Positions 27,330 through 63,300 of a stretch of DNA of 64,000 nucleotides are shown here, one piece after another. A program made the position numbers and the translations under genes. The DNA is taken from contig JALTWR010000008.1 in NCBI GenBank assembly GCA_027046965.1, positions 62,001 to 126,000 of the forward strand. Direction: 5' to 3'. The stretch is from Candidatus Altimarinota bacterium (GTDB lineage: Bacteria > Patescibacteriota > Gracilibacteria > Absconditabacterales > Absconditicoccaceae). Under the pieces are notes generated by a model, which ran no database searches, was not told the origin of the DNA, and was given only the letters and a program-made list of their open reading frames with translations. The stretch's first letter is position 1, and every line of letters starts with the position of its first letter.

Positions 27330-27396
27330 AGTTGCGCAAATTGGTCTATACTATTATAATTTAATATAGGGAATTTTTAATTTTTTTAGGTTGTAT

Positions 27397-28623
27397 ATGT
27401 CTGATCTTAAGCCTAAAGAATCTTTTCCTACATCTAGGGATTGAGAAAATACTGTTTCTTTAATTTCAAAGAAAACTTGAGAAGTATTATCTCATATTTT
27501 TAACATTTTCAAAAATCATACTACAGGAGTTGTTAATGCGTTGAAGTTTCATCAAGAATTAAAAAAAGTATTGCAGGAAAATGTCCAAAAAATCGAGCAA
27601 GAACCAGGGTTGTTTTTTAGGATTTTGTTTTGAGAATTGTTACCATCTTATATAGAGAAAAATTTTTGAGTTAAAACTAAGGCTATTGGATATTTTGAGG
27701 AAACAGAGGATTGATCATTAATTAAATTTAGTAAGGCTCCTGAAGGGTGGCCAAAGAAACAAAGTGAAAAATGACAAAAAGAAAATGAGTGCCAAGATGT
27801 GGGAAGATGTTGATGCGAATATAATCCTGATTCCAATGAAAATATTTTTAAGTTTAAATGGGGTGAATGATGTATAATTGCTCGGCTAGAGGGAGATGAT
27901 TTGCACAATGTTAAGAGAGCTTGGAGTTTTTTTAAATTGGTTTTGATCTGGGAGGCTCTATTAATAGTCAAAATGTGAATTAAGGCTTTAAAAAAAGAGG
28001 TAAATAAACTTAGGAAAGATTCAACAACGGGTCTTTTGAGAAGAGAAGCTTGGGAGAGGGCAGTATATGGCAATATAGAGTTGTTATCAAGGGGGAGTTT
28101 AGTATTTTTGGATCTTAACAATTTTAAGCAGATAAACGATAAATTAGGGCATGATACGGGAGATGAGGTTTTAAGAATGCTTTGAAATGCTATAACAGAG
28201 GCATTTAGGTCACAAAATGATATTGCTGGAAGATGGGGTGGAGATGAATTTATAATTACTATAGGGTATGATAAGATAAGTCCTGATGAGATAATAAACA
28301 GAATAGGGAAAAAAATGGAACAACAAATACAAAATTCAGAATTGGAAGATAGTGTAAAATCACAAATTCTATATCGGCTTTGTAACGGTAATTTAGGTCA
28401 AGATGATGCCCAATCTACTCAATCTGCTGATAATTGTGGGTATAATTTTGTGGCTGTTTGAGTGGTAAATAGAGCTCAAATCAACAAGAAATTAGATAAT
28501 TTAGAATGGGAAGACTTTAAAGGAATTTTGAAAAATTTGATTGAATCTTTGTCAGAAAATATGAAAAATCATAAAAGAAACCAAAAAGATAACGGGCAGC
28601 TCCCCAAAGACGGTGCTGATTAA
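27397..28623 (+). CDS. GGDEF-domain protein (probable diguanylate cyclase) with N-terminal sensor-like domain
   Basis: 408 residues. The GGDEF domain (about 210-400) has [21 protein letters not shown] and GRWGGDEF, so the active-site motif is intact; cyclic-di-GMP synthesis from GTP is the expected activity. There is no RxxD inhibitory site: the residue five before the motif's D is Ser in SQND. The N-terminal 190 residues look like a GAF-type fold with three or four cysteines (C-x5-C-x-C near residues 140-150) that could bind metal or cofactor. An amphipathic linker helix joins the two. The promoter may be TTGCGC-N17-TATAAT (27332-27360). No c-di-GMP receptor or phosphodiesterase is seen in the window. 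Confidence 0.8.
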
Positions 28624-32978: not shown

Positions 32979-35516
32979 TTATTGACAAGACTCACACATC
33001 ACTTTTTCAAAGGGATCAGTAGGACAGGCGTTTTCTCAATAAAGCTCCCCAGACCTTAACTTTTCAAAGTACTCGTCACCTTTTGTTAGTCTAATATATT
33101 CTTCAATAATTTTTTCTTCTTCAGCACTAGGATTATTGGGGTCTATGGTTTCTAGCTTTTTCTCTAATTCTTTAATTCTTGCTTGTTTGGGGTCAGATGA
33201 ATCTGTTAATGTTGTGGCGATTTTAACTTTTTGCTTTACTCCAAACCCCTTCCTTGCTCCACGTTTGTTAACCTTTTGGGTATATTTTTCTCCTTGTATT
33301 TTTTTCTCGATAAAACAATAATATGTTGCTTTGAGCCCTTTTTTCCAAGCATAAAGGTATATTTCCTCCATGTTATCTCTTAATTCTTCTTTGAGATACA
33401 TATTTCTACTAATGGATTGATCTACCCATTTTTGCCAAGCAGCAGCTATATCAATTTGTGAAAAAGGTGATATTTCATAAGCGGTCTTAAACAGTTTTTT
33501 ATCTATTATTCAGTCCAATTCAGGTATGTTTTGTATGCTACCTCCAGCATTAATTATTTTGGATTTTATTTCTTCATTCCATAGCCCTTTTTCTTTTAAT
33601 TGATTTATAAGTGCTTTTATAATTATGGTAAATTTTCCTGATAATGTTTCTCTAGAATATACGTTGGCAAAATAAGGATCAATAGTAGAGGAGGTCCCAG
33701 CTATTAATGAAATGGATGAGGTCGGAGCAATAGCCATTAATACTAGATTTTTTCTAGGTTTGTATGGTGGCTTTTCCCATTTAGCATATTCTTTTTGATA
33801 AAATGGAAAAGCTCCTTCCACTTGAGCTAATTCTTCAGAGGTTTGAAGGGCCGTAGTGTATATAAACTCTCCAAGTTTGTCAGAGAGTTTAACTGCTTCA
33901 GGAGATTCATAAGGTATATGCAAGTCTATAAACATTTCTGCCAGTCACATAATTCCAAGTCAGATTGGTCTTAAGTCTTGTGAATTTTTTTTGGATTCTG
34001 GTGAAGGATAAAAGTTTATGTCTATTACGTTATCTAGAGCTTGTATAGCTATTTGTACTGTCTTTTTTAACTCTTCCCAGTTGATTAGCTCTAGCTTTTG
34101 TTCAAATGAAAGCTTTGATATGTCTTGATGATGTGTTTTTTTCACAAATTTGGATAGATTTATAGAGGCAAGGTTACAAACGGCTGTACTTTGTTCAGAA
34201 TTTGGAATTCATATTTCTGTACATAAATTGGATGAGTGGATTATGCTATATTCTTTTGCAGGATTTTTTTCATTAAATCTATCTTTAAATGTGATCCAAT
34301 AGTTACCAGTTTTTGCTAGCCTTATCAAAATTTCCTTGTAAAGATTTGTAGCCTTCATCTTTTTCCATAACTTCAATTCTCCTTTTTCAGCTTTTTGTAT
34401 ACATTTGGAGTAGTATTTACTAAATTCTTTACCCCATTTAGTTACCAGTCCTGGGCATTCTTTAGGGTCAAACATATACCAATCTTGGTCTTTTTGCACT
34501 CTTTCCATAAACTCATCTGGTATCCAGCTGGCTGTGTTTAAGGATCTTGTCCTAAGATAATCATTTCAGTTGGTCTCTTTTAGGTCCAAGAATTCTGTAA
34601 AGTTGTAGTGCCATGGCTCCATGTATATTACTTCAGATGACCTCCTTCTTCCTCCTTGCATTATAGCATTTATGATTGTATCATAGATTTTGATAAAAGG
34701 AATAGGCCCTGATGATTTTGAGTTAAGAGTGTCAATATGAGATCCAGATGCTCTGAGTTTGCCAAAATAAGTTCATACTCATCCAGCATATTTAGCGAAA
34801 AAAGCAGTTTCTTTTGCTTTGTCCATAATACTCTCTAGAGAATCTCCAACTACGTTTACATAGCAGCTGCTCAGTTGAGAGATTTTCATACCTGAATTAA
34901 ATAAGGTGGGAGTAGAGTGGACATATTTTAACTGTGCCAGTTGGTTATAGATTTTTATAGCAAGTTCCTCTTTGTCTTGTTCTGTAAGAGACAGTCCCAT
35001 TGCAATTCTCATCCACATCCATTGAGGCTTTTCCACCAATCTTTTTTGAGAGTCTCTAGTTAAATATCTATCTTTCATTATAGAAAGTCCAAAGTAATTT
35101 AAGTGTTTGTCAAATTCATAATTTATACTTAACTCAATAGCTCCTAGGTTAAAATCTTTCATTTTAGGATTTAAAATTCCGTTTTCAACTCACCAGTTTA
35201 TATAATCAGCAAAAGAAGCAAATTGTTTGTTTACCTCTTTATTGATTATTTTTACTAACTGAGCAGTAGCTACTTCATCATATAGGGGATCATCTGTAAT
35301 TAAAGGTTCAATAGCCTTCAAAAGCAACTGATCTATTTCTTCTGTTTTTACTTGTGGAGGTAGCTTTAATTCAAAATTTTTTAGTATTTTTACCAAGGGT
35401 ATAAATTGATCTTCAAATGGTACATGTTGAGTTACCTCTTCAATAGCTTTTATAATCTTTTCGGTTTTAAAAGGCTCTTGAGTGCCGTCTCTGTGTATTA
35501 CTACTTTTTGGCTCAT
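32979..35516 (-). CDS. nrdA: Ribonucleoside-diphosphate reductase, alpha subunit
   Basis: 845 residues; reduces ribonucleotides to deoxyribonucleotides. An N-terminal ATP-cone (VVIHRDGTQEPFKTEKIIKAI, 5-95) suggests dATP/ATP control of activity. Catalytic residues are present: Cys in LSSCYVN (about 207), the N-x-C-x-E set in SSNLCTEIG, the partner Cys in TAVCNLAS, the radical-relay Tyr pair in ATYYC, and a C-terminal CESCQ redox pair. CGG/CGA is not needed to explain it. Transcribed after nrdB, 21 bases away. Many glycines are TGA. Confidence 0.95.
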
Positions 35517-35537
35517 AATGTAGTATTGTGTTATAGT

Positions 35538-36524
35538 CTAAAAGTTTGTATATTGGTTTGGGGTTGTTTCAAAAAAGTTTTGTAATACCATCAAATCTTG
35601 CTTTTCAAGCCATTTAATAGGATTTTTGTCTACACCAAAATAAGGAGCAAATCCTAGTTCCTCTAGTCTTCTATCTGTAATAAATTTTAGGTATCATTCC
35701 ATCTCTTCATAAGAGACACCAAAAACTATATGATTTTCAAAATGTCTTTTTAAGAACTTTAATTCCAGTTCTACACCATCAGTTAGAGTTTTTCTTACTT
35801 TTTCCACAAATTGCTCATCTTCAGCCAATTCAGGAGTTTCTTCTAGCATAGCTAAAATTAATTCTATTCCTAGTTGTAAGTGAAAGCTTTCATCTATTAA
35901 TACTAAATCTACACCATTGTTAACATTTTTCATTTTCCCTGTTTCTCTCATAGCAAAATACAAGGTGAACGCTGAGTAAAAAAATATTCACTCTTGCAAG
36001 ATATTGTTTACTAAAATTGCATATAAAATTTTCTTTTTTCATTCTAATGTGTCAGGGTCAATAATGTTACCAGCTCCCACGCTAATGGCATCTGCGGCTT
36101 GAGCCACCAGTCCTTGTTTTTCTTTTAATAGAGGGTCTGTAGTGGTTTTTTCATACATCTGCTTACGATCCATACTGAAAGTGTTAAGTATCATTTCAAA
36201 AAAATCTGAGTGAATGTCTTCCATAAACATTTGTACTGTCATAGCCATTTTTGCATGAGGATGAACTATGTAAGGGTAAAATGCTTCTCATAGCACATTT
36301 TGAACTAATAATTCGCTAGTGACAAAATAACCAATTAGATCGTGAAATAAACGCCTTTCATCATCATTCAAAGATTCGTAATCCATAACATCTTGCTGGA
36401 TATTGATTTCTTCCGGAAACCATACTGCCTGCTTTTGCCTCACATATAGCTCGCGAAAAACATCATGAGATCCGTCAAGTTTGATGCCGTCTAATACAGA
36501 CTTTTTCCCTACGATTTTCACCAT
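35538..36524 (-). CDS. nrdB: Ribonucleoside-diphosphate reductase, beta (R2) subunit, class Ic-like
   Basis: 328 residues from the ATG at 36522-36524; a longer frame begins with TTG and is not preferred. The dimetal ligands are all visible: Glu71, Glu102 and His105 (MEDIHSDFF), Glu178 (LQEGIFFY), Glu212 and His215 (DESFH). At the position of the radical tyrosine (E. coli Tyr122, seven residues after the second Glu) there is Phe109, and the first ligand is Glu, not Asp. Both traits are those of the class Ic (Chlamydia type, Mn/Fe) R2 proteins. Precedes nrdA in an operon; a promoter is not obvious. Confidence 0.93.
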
Positions 36525-36660
36525 TGCTCTTAAAATTAGGATGTAAACTAGATATAGGGGGATTGCAGCGATCAAAATACTACATATAGTGGTATGATTT
36601 TCGATTCTGTATTCAAGGAAAAAAGTAAAAAAAATTTTTGTAGCTAAACTAGATTGTTTT

Positions 36661-57782: not shown

Positions 57783-57811
57783 CCTCCTTCCATATAGGAA
57801 GGGGGCTTTTT
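57783..57811 (+). terminator. Terminator after rpoC
   Basis: CCTCCTTCC-ATATA-GGAAGGGGG stem (one G-U pair) with a run of six Ts behind it. Confidence 0.85.
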
Positions 57812-57824
57812 TATGTTTTTGAGA

Positions 57825-59174
57825 TTATTTAACTTGGATATCTTGCAACCCTCTTTTAATGTCAAAATCTATATCTTCATTGTCCAAAAATAGTTTTATG
57901 TTGTGCTTTTGTTCAATATACTTTCATATTTGGTGTGCGACTTTTCTTAATGTTGGGTGGACGAATCTTGTTGATCTAAGTTCCGCCAAATATACTAAAG
58001 CTGGAAGTGTTCATTGTAAAAAATTAGTAGTGAGGTATCACATAGGAATATAATATTGCCTTATCTCTGGGGATATATCAAGCTGATCTGTTAATTGTTT
58101 TATTTCCTTAAGGTGTTTTTGAGCTTCTTTTTGCAATTCTTTGGGTAGTTGTTGAATGTACCAAGGGTGAAATCCTATTTTGTCTGTTAATAGGGGCATT
58201 TGCTGATCTGGGGCTCTATGTCTTTGTAAATCTCTAAAAGACCCAAAGTCTAGCAAAAACTTAAAACTTATTATCCCTAAGCTATTGAGAAATTGAGGGA
58301 GTTCTGTTTTAGCATTAGGTCTTTGCTCTAAAAGTGGTTGATATTTTTTAACCTGCTTTGTGTCTATATTATCCTTGTAAACCTCGAATTCAGGATATGG
58401 ATACTCAAAAAAGTAATAAAAATCTTTTGATAACTCGGCGTATCTTTCTGTATCTTCATAAGTTTTAGTGGTGAAAGAGTTTGGATATTTTTGGATGCTA
58501 ACCTGTAAAATAGCTTTGGCAACTTCTCTTACTTCTTCAAGAGGATGGTGATTGAGCCGTAAGATTCTATCTTGTATTTGCCTTAGATTGCTGTGCCAGG
58601 CTAAATTAGTTGATGTTCAGGCTGGCAAAAACCCTCTTGCTATATCAAAGGCCTTGGCATTTATGGCTTTTTGCCAAATACTCTCTTTTTGATCTGGATT
58701 TCTAGGATACTTTTTTGCTAAATGATTTTTTAGGGGAGGCAAAATATTTAAATAAAATTGTCTTTGCTTTTCTTGAATCTGTTCTCCTAGCGATGTTCAA
58801 CTTGGGTTGTGAATCTTTTGTTTTGAAAAATCAATATACCTTGTTGAACTCTCTTGTCCAGAATATAATTTGTGATGTTGAATGGCCTTAGCAGCTAGCA
58901 TACTTATTCATTCAACGAAGAGTGTAGCAGAGCCACAATCTCCGATGCTTTTATGTCCATATCATACATAAAATTTGCTCATAAAATTGGCTGCTCATTT
59001 TTGTTTGAGAATTTCAAGATGGTGCTTAATTCAGCCTGTGGAGCGAGAGTGTAATGCTTGTAACATAGCTTCTGCTTCAGCATCTATTACAGCTCAGGTA
59101 TCCAAAATATAAACGTTAGCTCAAGAGGAAGTTTGAACGTGTAAATGCTGGAGTTTATTTAGATCTTTTTGCAT
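57825..59174 (-). CDS. thyX: Tandem two-domain ThyX-like flavin-dependent thymidylate synthase
   Basis: 449 residues, about twice the usual ThyX length. The N-terminal half has YGHKSIGDCGSATLFVEGIS near 70, QHHKLYSGQESSTRYIDFS near 99-117 (S-x-x-E-x-STRY kept, RHR reduced to HHK), and an AWHSNLRQIQDRIL segment. The C-terminal half has FRDLQRHRAPDQQM near 325 (RHR kept, STRY lost) and LAELRSTRFVHPTLRKVAHQI. Both halves therefore derive from ThyX and would methylate dUMP to dTMP using NADPH, FAD and methylene-tetrahydrofolate. Pairs with dcd and nrdAB functionally. No thyA in the window. Confidence 0.85.
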
Positions 59175-61301: not shown

Positions 61302-62246
61302 ATGAAAACAGCGTGGGATATTGTAGGGAAATGGCCTTTGTGGGTATGAATTGCTCTTACATGGATGGTGGCAGCTTTGTTCTTGTTTTTTAACAATATG
61401 AGATTAAGTATTGAATTTACCGGATGAGCTCAAGCCAAAATTGCCAATCTTTCTGGGGCTGATAGGCTGAGTGAGGATCTCAAGAGTTACTTGTCGTCCC
61501 AAGGATATGAAGATATACAGATAGGAGTGGCCAAAGAAGGGGCATATCATACAGTGCTTATAAAAGCTGCTATACCTAAGGATCAAGATGCTATTCAGTT
61601 TTCAGATATGGTCAAAGGTTTTTTGCTTTCTCATGGATATGTAAAAAATGTTGATGATATACTTTCTTTCTCTTTAGTATGACCTAGCATAGGGGATTAT
61701 ATGAAAAAATCAGCTGTGAAGGCTATCATATGGGCATTGATATTAATTGTTGTATATATGCTTTTTGCATTTGCATCCATTAGGGAGCATATATCACCTT
61801 TGCTTTTAGCATTGGTAACACTGTTTACATTGCTTTTTGACGTAAGTAGTGCGGCAGGGTTTTATGGACTGTGGGAAGCTATAAACCCAACTATTCAGGT
61901 AAATAGCATATTTATAATAGGGGTATTGATTATTATGGGTTATAGCATTAACGATACTATTATAATTTTTGATAGGATTAGGGAAAATCTTATCTTAGAA
62001 GACTCTAAGCTCAAAAAAGGTAAAATTACTGAAAAAGAAGTTTTCAATAAATCTTTGTGGCAAACAATGCGTAGGTCCATAGGAACCTCTCTTTCCACCT
62101 TGCTAGCTTTGTTCGCTTTATTTTTATTTGGAACAGAAATCTTAAAGATTTTTGCAGTTGTTGTTTGAGTTGGTGTGATAGCTGGTACTTATAGTTCTAT
62201 ATTTGTGGCAGCACCTCTTGCGTATTTCCTATCAGGTAAAAAGTAA
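61302..62246 (+). CDS. secF: Protein translocase subunit SecF
   Basis: 314 residues. One N-terminal membrane helix, an extracytoplasmic domain, and five C-terminal helices with the RND-type motif GYSINDTIIIFDRIRENL near 210. RFTGG region appears as SIEFTGGAQAKI near 40 (TGA as one Gly). Normally works with SecD, which is not adjacent. Two bases before dcd's ATG. Confidence 0.92.
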
Positions 62247-62247
62247 G

Positions 62248-63300
62248 ATGCTCGTTTTGGTAGATAAGGATATTAAAAAATTGCTTTCTCAAAAAGCTTT
62301 GAGATCCCTTAGTAGGTCATCGTTGGATGCATTTGTACAACCAGCCAGCTTGGACTTACCTGTTGGTAAAGAAATTTTTTTGGTGGACCAGAAGTTTTTA
62401 CCCCTATGATGATCTGTAGAAAAGCATCTGTTAAGACATCAAGTAAAGAAAGTTAGGCTTCGCAGATGAGAGAAATATACTTTATTTAAAGGGCAAACTT
62501 ATCTGATTCCTGTTTTAGATATATCTTTGCCAGAAGGTATTGAATGAAGACTTTCTCCCAAAAGTAGTATAGGAAGGATAGACTTACTCGTTAGAGGAGT
62601 CTTTGATAATGTGGCAATGTATGATATCATCCCTACTTGAAGCAAATGAAGGTTGCGACTTGAGGTTACTCCTCAATCTTTTAATGTGGATATTAGTCCA
62701 GGGGTATCTCTTTCTCAGCTTATGTTTTTGGCTGGACAAAAAAGAGGGGAAATAAAGGTAGAGGAGCTCAAGGAGCAAATACTGCTGTCCTCAAATCACT
62801 CTATGATGGTTGATGGTAAATTAGTTTTTACTATTGATTTGGAGTGAGAAGTTGTATGATACAAGGCTATAAGCACCTCCAAAGTTATAGATTTAACTAA
62901 GACTTCGTTTTACAATCCGGAAGACTTTTTTAAGCCAGTTAAGCTAGATCCTTGTAAAGCATTTAAAAGGCTTACTTTGAGGGCTGGAGACTTTTATATT
63001 TTTGCTACTAAAGAAATAATTAATGTGCCTTTAAATATTGCCTTGGAATGGCAGCCTTTTTCTCATTTGTTGGGAGAATTAAGAGTTCATTATGCATGAT
63101 TTTTTGATCCAGGATTTAGAGCAAAGGGAGTTATGGAAGTGCGTGCTCGGGAAAACATTAAACTTTATGATGGGCAACCTATTGGAATGTTTGAAATATA
63201 TTTTACCAAATGAGCTCCGGCTACGCCGTATTGAAGTGCTGGTAATAATTATCAGGGACAAAAATGACCTAGATTAGCAAAATTCTTTAAAGAAAACTAA
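62248..63300 (+). CDS. dcd: dCTP deaminase, long two-domain form
   Basis: 350 residues, twice the length of the common trimeric dCTP deaminase, as in the long DCD subfamily. N-half: LDAFVQPASLDLPVG near 30 and the RLSPKSSIGRIDLLVRGVFD segment near 98-112. C-half: ELRVHYAGFFDPGFRAKGVMEVRA near 280 and DGQPIGMFEIYF. It converts dCTP to dUTP, feeding ThyX. CGA at residue 137 (GRL-x-LEVTP) and CGG near residue 302 would be Trp. Two tandem TGA-TGA in the N-half. Confidence 0.9.

Follow-up and report, generated by a model that had tools for sequence, protein, structure and literature searches.

The window, a stretch of 64,000 nucleotides from a genome of Candidatus Altimarinota bacterium, encodes a protein in which two diverged ThyX domains are fused head to tail, and this protein is probably an active flavin-dependent thymidylate synthase. 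Two of the fused chains would form a pseudo-tetramer that resembles the canonical ThyX homotetramer and has two composite active sites; from the sequence, combined with the subunit roles in published structures, we put the probability of this reading at about three in four. The residues that the two halves have lost are complementary, the pattern is nearly invariant among relatives found in bacteria, archaea and large phages, and the protein is the only visible dTMP-making enzyme of its genome.

The gene and its two ThyX halves

The tandem thyX gene lies at 57825..59174 on the minus strand, as do all its features given below, and with its 11 TGA codons translated as Gly it encodes 449 amino acids (stop codon at 57825-57827). 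These are the coordinates already given by an earlier sequence-only reading, and the frame is open only with TGA as Gly: it is broken when read with table 11 and is a single frame of 449 codons with code 25. The broken frame could raise the suspicion of an artefact, in which a wrong code, a frameshift or a chimeric assembly has joined two partial ThyX genes, but the TGA positions coincide with conserved glycines (Gly at TGA positions 60, 71, 186 and 379 in 48/54, 52/54, 54/54 and 53/54 relatives that need no recoding), and the same two-half ORF is found in hundreds of relatives, most of which use the standard code. The artefact is refuted by these two observations and has practically no probability left. 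Also rpoB, rpoC and other housekeeping genes of the window require TGA as Gly, which is the correct code for tandem thyX. The genes rpoC and tandem thyX run towards each other, and a terminator-like hairpin, recognised by a consensus match only (57783..57805, plus strand), lies between their ends.

The Pfam family Thy1 (PF02511) matches the protein with 1.7e-25 and 90.4 bits (curated cut-off 24.8) in two stretches, and in the genome search the two halves appear as two Thy1 matches with 1.7e-19 and 4e-4. With approximate boundaries, the N-terminal half comprises residues ~1-245 (58440..59174; Thy1 match at residues 45-231; E 5e-8 in hhalign against TM0449, the ThyX of T. maritima) and the C-terminal half residues ~246-449 (57828..58439; the second Thy1 match with 4e-4; hhalign E 1e-5). 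With two Thy1 halves within one open frame, a C half with FGxxRDxxRHR and an N half with E-x-S-x-R-Y, the protein belongs to the tandem ThyX class. The NCBIfam thyX equivalog TIGR02170 is not reached (59.5 bits at a cut-off of 87.9), and tandem relatives that are fused to a thymidylate kinase likewise stay under this cut-off. The canonical ThyX motif, for which a single domain has RHR and then S/E/SxRY, is split across the halves, and all catalytic residues of ThyX are present when the whole chain is pooled.

The structure prediction that the sequence-only reading had proposed was carried out for the monomer, and it gave a confident fold: the AlphaFold2 model, based on a 60-row alignment, has a mean pLDDT of 92.9 and a pTM of 0.90. 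The best PDB matches of this model are all ThyX, each of them single-chain, and the predicted fold is thus that of ThyX; there is no solved tandem ThyX among these matches. A model of a tandem viral protein (A0A6B7EUB9 in BFVD) matches over the full length with a TM of 0.89, and PolB (PDB 4p5a), a UMP/dUMP methylase, is listed as a weak structural match only.

Complementary losses and the proposed composite site

For residue mapping, profiles of the N halves and of the C halves were each aligned to TM0449 by hhalign, and residue numbers are those of T. maritima unless stated or unless a residue of the window protein is named. The reference sequence of TM0449 agrees with PDB 1kq4 over all 220 residues except one near the C-terminus. 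The sequence-only reading had found S-x-x-E-x-STRY in the N half, with HHK in place of RHR, and RHR in the C half, which lacks the S/E/STRY residues, and the alignments confirm exactly this split. The N half carries the stretch AIQ-HHK-LYSGQ-E108-S-S110-T-R112-Y113, where His100-His101-Lys102 (58869..58877) correspond to R78-H79-R80 as a degenerate RHR, and Glu108-Ser-Ser110-Thr-Arg112-Tyr113 (58836..58853) are the retained dUMP/FAD loop (E86, S88, R90, Y91) that acts in the role of subunit C in the canonical enzyme. The C half carries FGSFRD-LQ-R318H319R320-APDQQMPLLT without a counterpart of S/E/STRY; its signature FGSFRDLQRHR (58215..58247) includes the retained RHR 318-320 (58215-58223), which stands for the role of subunit A. 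A complete site within one half would have contradicted the sequence-only reading, and at the level of sequence neither half has RHR and SxRY in register. The complementary loss extends beyond what had been described, as R174 is lost in the N half (Leu207) and kept in the C half (Arg400, 57975..57977; subunit A role, activating N3 of dUMP), while R147 is kept in the N half (Arg180, 58635..58637; Arg172 in M. tuberculosis, contacting the dUMP phosphate) and lost in the C half (Gln373). In addition, the N half has retained R165 as Arg198, whose counterpart in the C half is Pro391, and the E86-Y91 loop is absent from the C half.

The partition was counted in 206 non-redundant tandem ThyX relatives of bacterial, archaeal and large-phage origin. 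Among the N halves, Ser76 (58947..58949; T55 in T. maritima and S71 in M. tuberculosis, an FAD contact in the subunit B role) is Ser in all 206, E108 is conserved in 201, S110 and R112 in 206 each, Y113 in 200 and R180 in 204, and RHR is found in 0/206. Among the C halves, R318 is conserved in 206, H319 in 199, R320 in 203 and R400 in 204; the position of R180 is Gln in 160/206 C halves, and that of R400 is Leu or Met in nearly all N halves. Exceptions to the partition are few, and certain phage loci are truncated or divergent. The complementary pattern is nearly invariant over these relatives and is not due to chance. HHK was considered as a meaningful motif and rejected, since it is peculiar to the window sequence and relatives carry D, W, S and others; the constant feature of the N halves is the loss of RHR, and R80 is still Arg in 126/206 of them. 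A C-half RHR...STRF in two relatives (L075 and L083) was judged a chance match, as it is shifted by two residues against the canonical loop, and one relative (L012/L019 of genome G069) was excluded as its gene is interrupted by a scattered N run.

Two further positions differ from canonical ThyX in ways of their own. Beside RHR, in the nucleotide pocket, Asp315 (58230-58232) replaces Q75, and this Asp is a class-wide feature (183/186 tandem sequences). In the longer tandem clade (L023, L073, L081, L247 and others), the folate-side His53, which is His74 in the window protein, is Asp in 114/142, the same change as in the laboratory mutant H53D of PDB 4kar.

Canonical ThyX forms a tetramer of 222 symmetry whose sites each involve three monomers (PMC3498832), and the sequence-only reading had pointed to such multi-subunit sites; the residues retained here match the published roles of the subunits. 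The FAD of subunit A is contacted by RHR from A, by Ser71 and Arg190 from B, and by the backbone of Gln103 from C, according to a review on the enzymes of M. tuberculosis and H. pylori, in which the stacked dUMP is bound by Arg95 (R78) and Arg199 (R174) from A and by Arg87, Ser105 (S88), Arg107 (R90) and Tyr108 (Y91) from C (PMC6514825). The dUMP phosphate is bound by Arg172 (R147) together with Arg87 and Arg107 (PMC9571937). What the C half has retained is the published A set, and what the N half has retained is the C set plus Ser71, and since a canonical site takes RHR with R174 from one subunit and S88/R90/Y91 from another, the losses follow the subunit roles.

It can thus be expected that the C half always takes the A role, with its counterparts of RHR and R174, and that N halves take the roles of B and C. 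Under 222 symmetry, A is joined in its site by two further subunits and the fourth takes no part, so that a C half as A implies N halves as B and C. The fourth subunit would be the other C half, and a dimer of fused chains would therefore have two complete sites and two abandoned ones. Each composite site would consist of the C half of one chain and the N halves of both chains, and two such sites, one per chain, would remain in the dimer instead of four, the two reciprocal sites having decayed. The mixed active site of the sequence-only reading therefore stands as a composite site deduced from the residues, with a refinement: the dimer would have two, each built from three subunits and not closed within one chain. 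A different pairing, in which the C half takes the B role or a site is closed by just two partners, the N and C halves of a single chain, is rather unlikely. It would fit with R165 (Arg190 in M. tuberculosis, a B-role residue), which is unevenly partitioned and which the longer clade has retained in its C half (in both halves in 84/142 and in the C half only in 37/142), but the compact clade has retained R165 mostly in the N half, and the Ser of the GHxS motif (T55/S71), a motif that is absent from the C half, is in the N half in 206/206.

Probable thymidylate synthesis

The genome to which the window belongs comprises 855 kb and is ~95% complete. Neither ThyA nor a thymidine kinase was found in it, nor any further ThyX, as the two halves are its only Thy1 matches, and serine hydroxymethyltransferase (SHMT) is present. 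The tandem ThyX is the only visible dTMP-making enzyme of this genome. In the phylum (380 genomes), where matches to the tandem profile were taken as confident at E below about 1e-18, 82 genomes have the tandem profile and 207 have ThyA, and both are found in 3 genomes instead of the expected 45 (p 1e-28 in a test that ignores relatedness). In the family, 10 genomes have Thy1, 29 have ThyA and 0 have both (p 2e-5, relatedness again ignored).

Some Patescibacteria have a kinase-like domain ahead of the tandem ThyX in one frame of 736-776 aa (L250:1331-3661, plus strand; L252:1834-4044, minus strand; L251, a frame of 758 aa), and the two of these thymidylate kinase fusions that were scored both exceed the cut-off of the dTMP kinase equivalog. 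Several other frames of 737-796 aa in Patescibacteria may represent the same fusion. A chain of thymidylate kinase, ThyX and ThyX couples the formation of dTMP to its next step.

In the Chlamydiota, Thy1 is found in 76/79 genomes, nearly always matching twice within a single frame of ~530-590 aa, and three small genomes that were examined encode proteins of 529-530 aa with the same motifs. The ThyX of C. trachomatis is reported to turn over and to make tetrahydrofolate (PMC12584634, citing Griffin et al. 2005). As this enzyme is reported active and chlamydial ThyX is nearly always tandem, it is very probable, by analogy, that the activity of some tandem ThyX has already been demonstrated. For the protein of the window, dTMP synthesis can be expected.

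A protein of this fold might also serve another substrate and methylate a different uracil nucleotide, or make a modified base like PolB does, with the short clade having come from large phages or having passed to them. PolB (PDB 4p5a) shows that the ThyX fold can switch its substrate, the compact clade also includes large phage contigs, and the Asp in place of Q75 in the nucleotide pocket is nearly invariant. This is nevertheless improbable, as the tandem ThyX is the sole candidate for a thymidylate synthase in its own genome, excludes ThyA across the phylum and forms fusions with thymidylate kinase in relatives, and as Chlamydiota depend on the same type of ThyX. Even less credit can be given to a degenerate or regulatory pseudoenzyme, in which both halves are decaying and no site is formed. 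Each half by itself lacks essential residues, and the title of a PDB entry calls a C. glutamicum ThyX not required for thymidylate synthesis, but the remaining residues are nearly invariant across bacteria, archaea and phages, and no other source of dTMP was found in the genome. An active, fused ThyX with composite sites is therefore preferred.

Other genes of nucleotide metabolism are encoded in the window. Near the tandem ThyX there is a two-domain dCTP deaminase (DCD_N and DCD_C; 62236-63300, plus strand), so that two neighbouring enzymes of the dUMP/dTMP pathway are both two-domain, and the genes of the ribonucleotide reductase large subunit, which has an ATP cone, and small subunit lie side by side (32979-36575, minus strand). 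The window also encodes a GGDEF protein (diguanylate cyclase) of 410 aa (27391-28623, plus strand) in this genome of 855 kb.

Distribution, origin and known relatives

GTDB genomes were scanned with a degenerate pattern, which matched 458 stretches that encode tandem relatives; the best 80 of 458 were kept. The GTDB relatives belong to Patescibacteria, Chlamydiota, Acidimicrobiia and other Actinomycetota, Chloroflexota, Cyanobacteria (Calothrix, Richelia), SAR324, Nitrososphaerota and DPANN archaea. IMG/VR contributes 79 tandem ThyX loci on viral contigs, and named phages with tandem ThyX are Vibrio phage BONAISHI, Yong phages and Microcystis phage LMM01. On Bacillus plasmids there is a divergent ThyX-like CDS of 1,698 bases (L236; Bacillus licheniformis plasmid NZ_CP014843.1), and the part of it that was read is without RHR at the N-half position.

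A tree was built from 27 N halves, 27 C halves and 7 canonical ThyX, and in it the N halves and the C halves each form one clade with 100/99 support, as expected of one ancient duplication; the halves had been aligned group-wise before merging, which can favour such separate clades. Duplication, fusion and division of labour, as proposed by the sequence-only reading, are well supported by these clades and by losses that are nearly invariant in the 206 relatives. In the compact clade, copies from its own class and phylum form a group with the window gene (98-99 SH-aLRT), and this group lies in a mixed set of Patescibacteria and phages, which points to past exchange with phages. The split ThyX is an old and widespread design and no local curiosity.

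ThyX is a drug target that is absent from humans, and both its motif and its inhibitors have been framed on symmetric homotetramers. With slightly more doubt than confidence, it can be proposed that the division of labour is ancient and class-wide, with the C half acting as the flavin/RHR subunit, the N half as the one that brings the dUMP loop, and half of the sites of the ancestor given up, in Chlamydiota, Actinomycetota, Chloroflexota, Nitrososphaerota, Cyanobacteria, Patescibacteria, DPANN archaea and large phages. If this is true, it would be a general structural rule that has not been described before, and the ThyX motif of these organisms would have to be redrawn. Should all tandem ThyX, apparently also those of the Chlamydiota, be obligate asymmetric pseudo-tetramers with two composite sites, a large class is overlooked or wrongly scored by the usual motif and by the NCBI equivalog model. 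The fixed roles of the N and C halves would also allow each role to be mutated separately, which a homotetramer does not permit. The class is also a clean case of duplication, fusion and complementary loss that has been preserved over bacteria, archaea and phages.

The protein shares with canonical ThyX (PF02511; TM0449 and the ThyX of M. tuberculosis) the fold, the Thy1 profile and, with the halves pooled, the full catalytic set, and it differs in being two fused halves with complementary losses, in the Asp for Q75 and in two expected composite sites instead of four. A duplicated ThyX of Chloroflexi was recorded by Valas and Bourne in 2009 and termed uncharacterised, and the passage concerned does not mention a split active site (PMC3224940). 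It has the domain duplication in common with the window protein, and Chloroflexi sequences analysed here (e.g. L094) show the same partition. Apart from that note on duplication, the literature searched, from which subscription journals are mostly missing, yielded no description of a split-site ThyX, and RefSeq labels such proteins as FAD-dependent thymidylate synthase (Euzebya). The window gene is a compact-subtype member of the known duplicated ThyX, and the class-wide division of labour is perhaps undescribed.

The ThyX of Chlamydiota is likewise tandem, with ~530 aa, and shows the same partition in 22/22 chlamydial sequences checked, but it belongs to the longer clade, with Asp as the counterpart of His53 and R165 in both halves, whereas the window gene is ~80 aa shorter and keeps the His. 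In the chlamydial proteins L247-L249, a His-rich stretch (HHHHH or HHYHH) lies between the halves. The tandem ThyX of large phages are compact relatives outside the Patescibacteria with up to 44-45% identity, and in contrast to these phage-encoded proteins, the window gene falls among copies from its own bacterial class and phylum.
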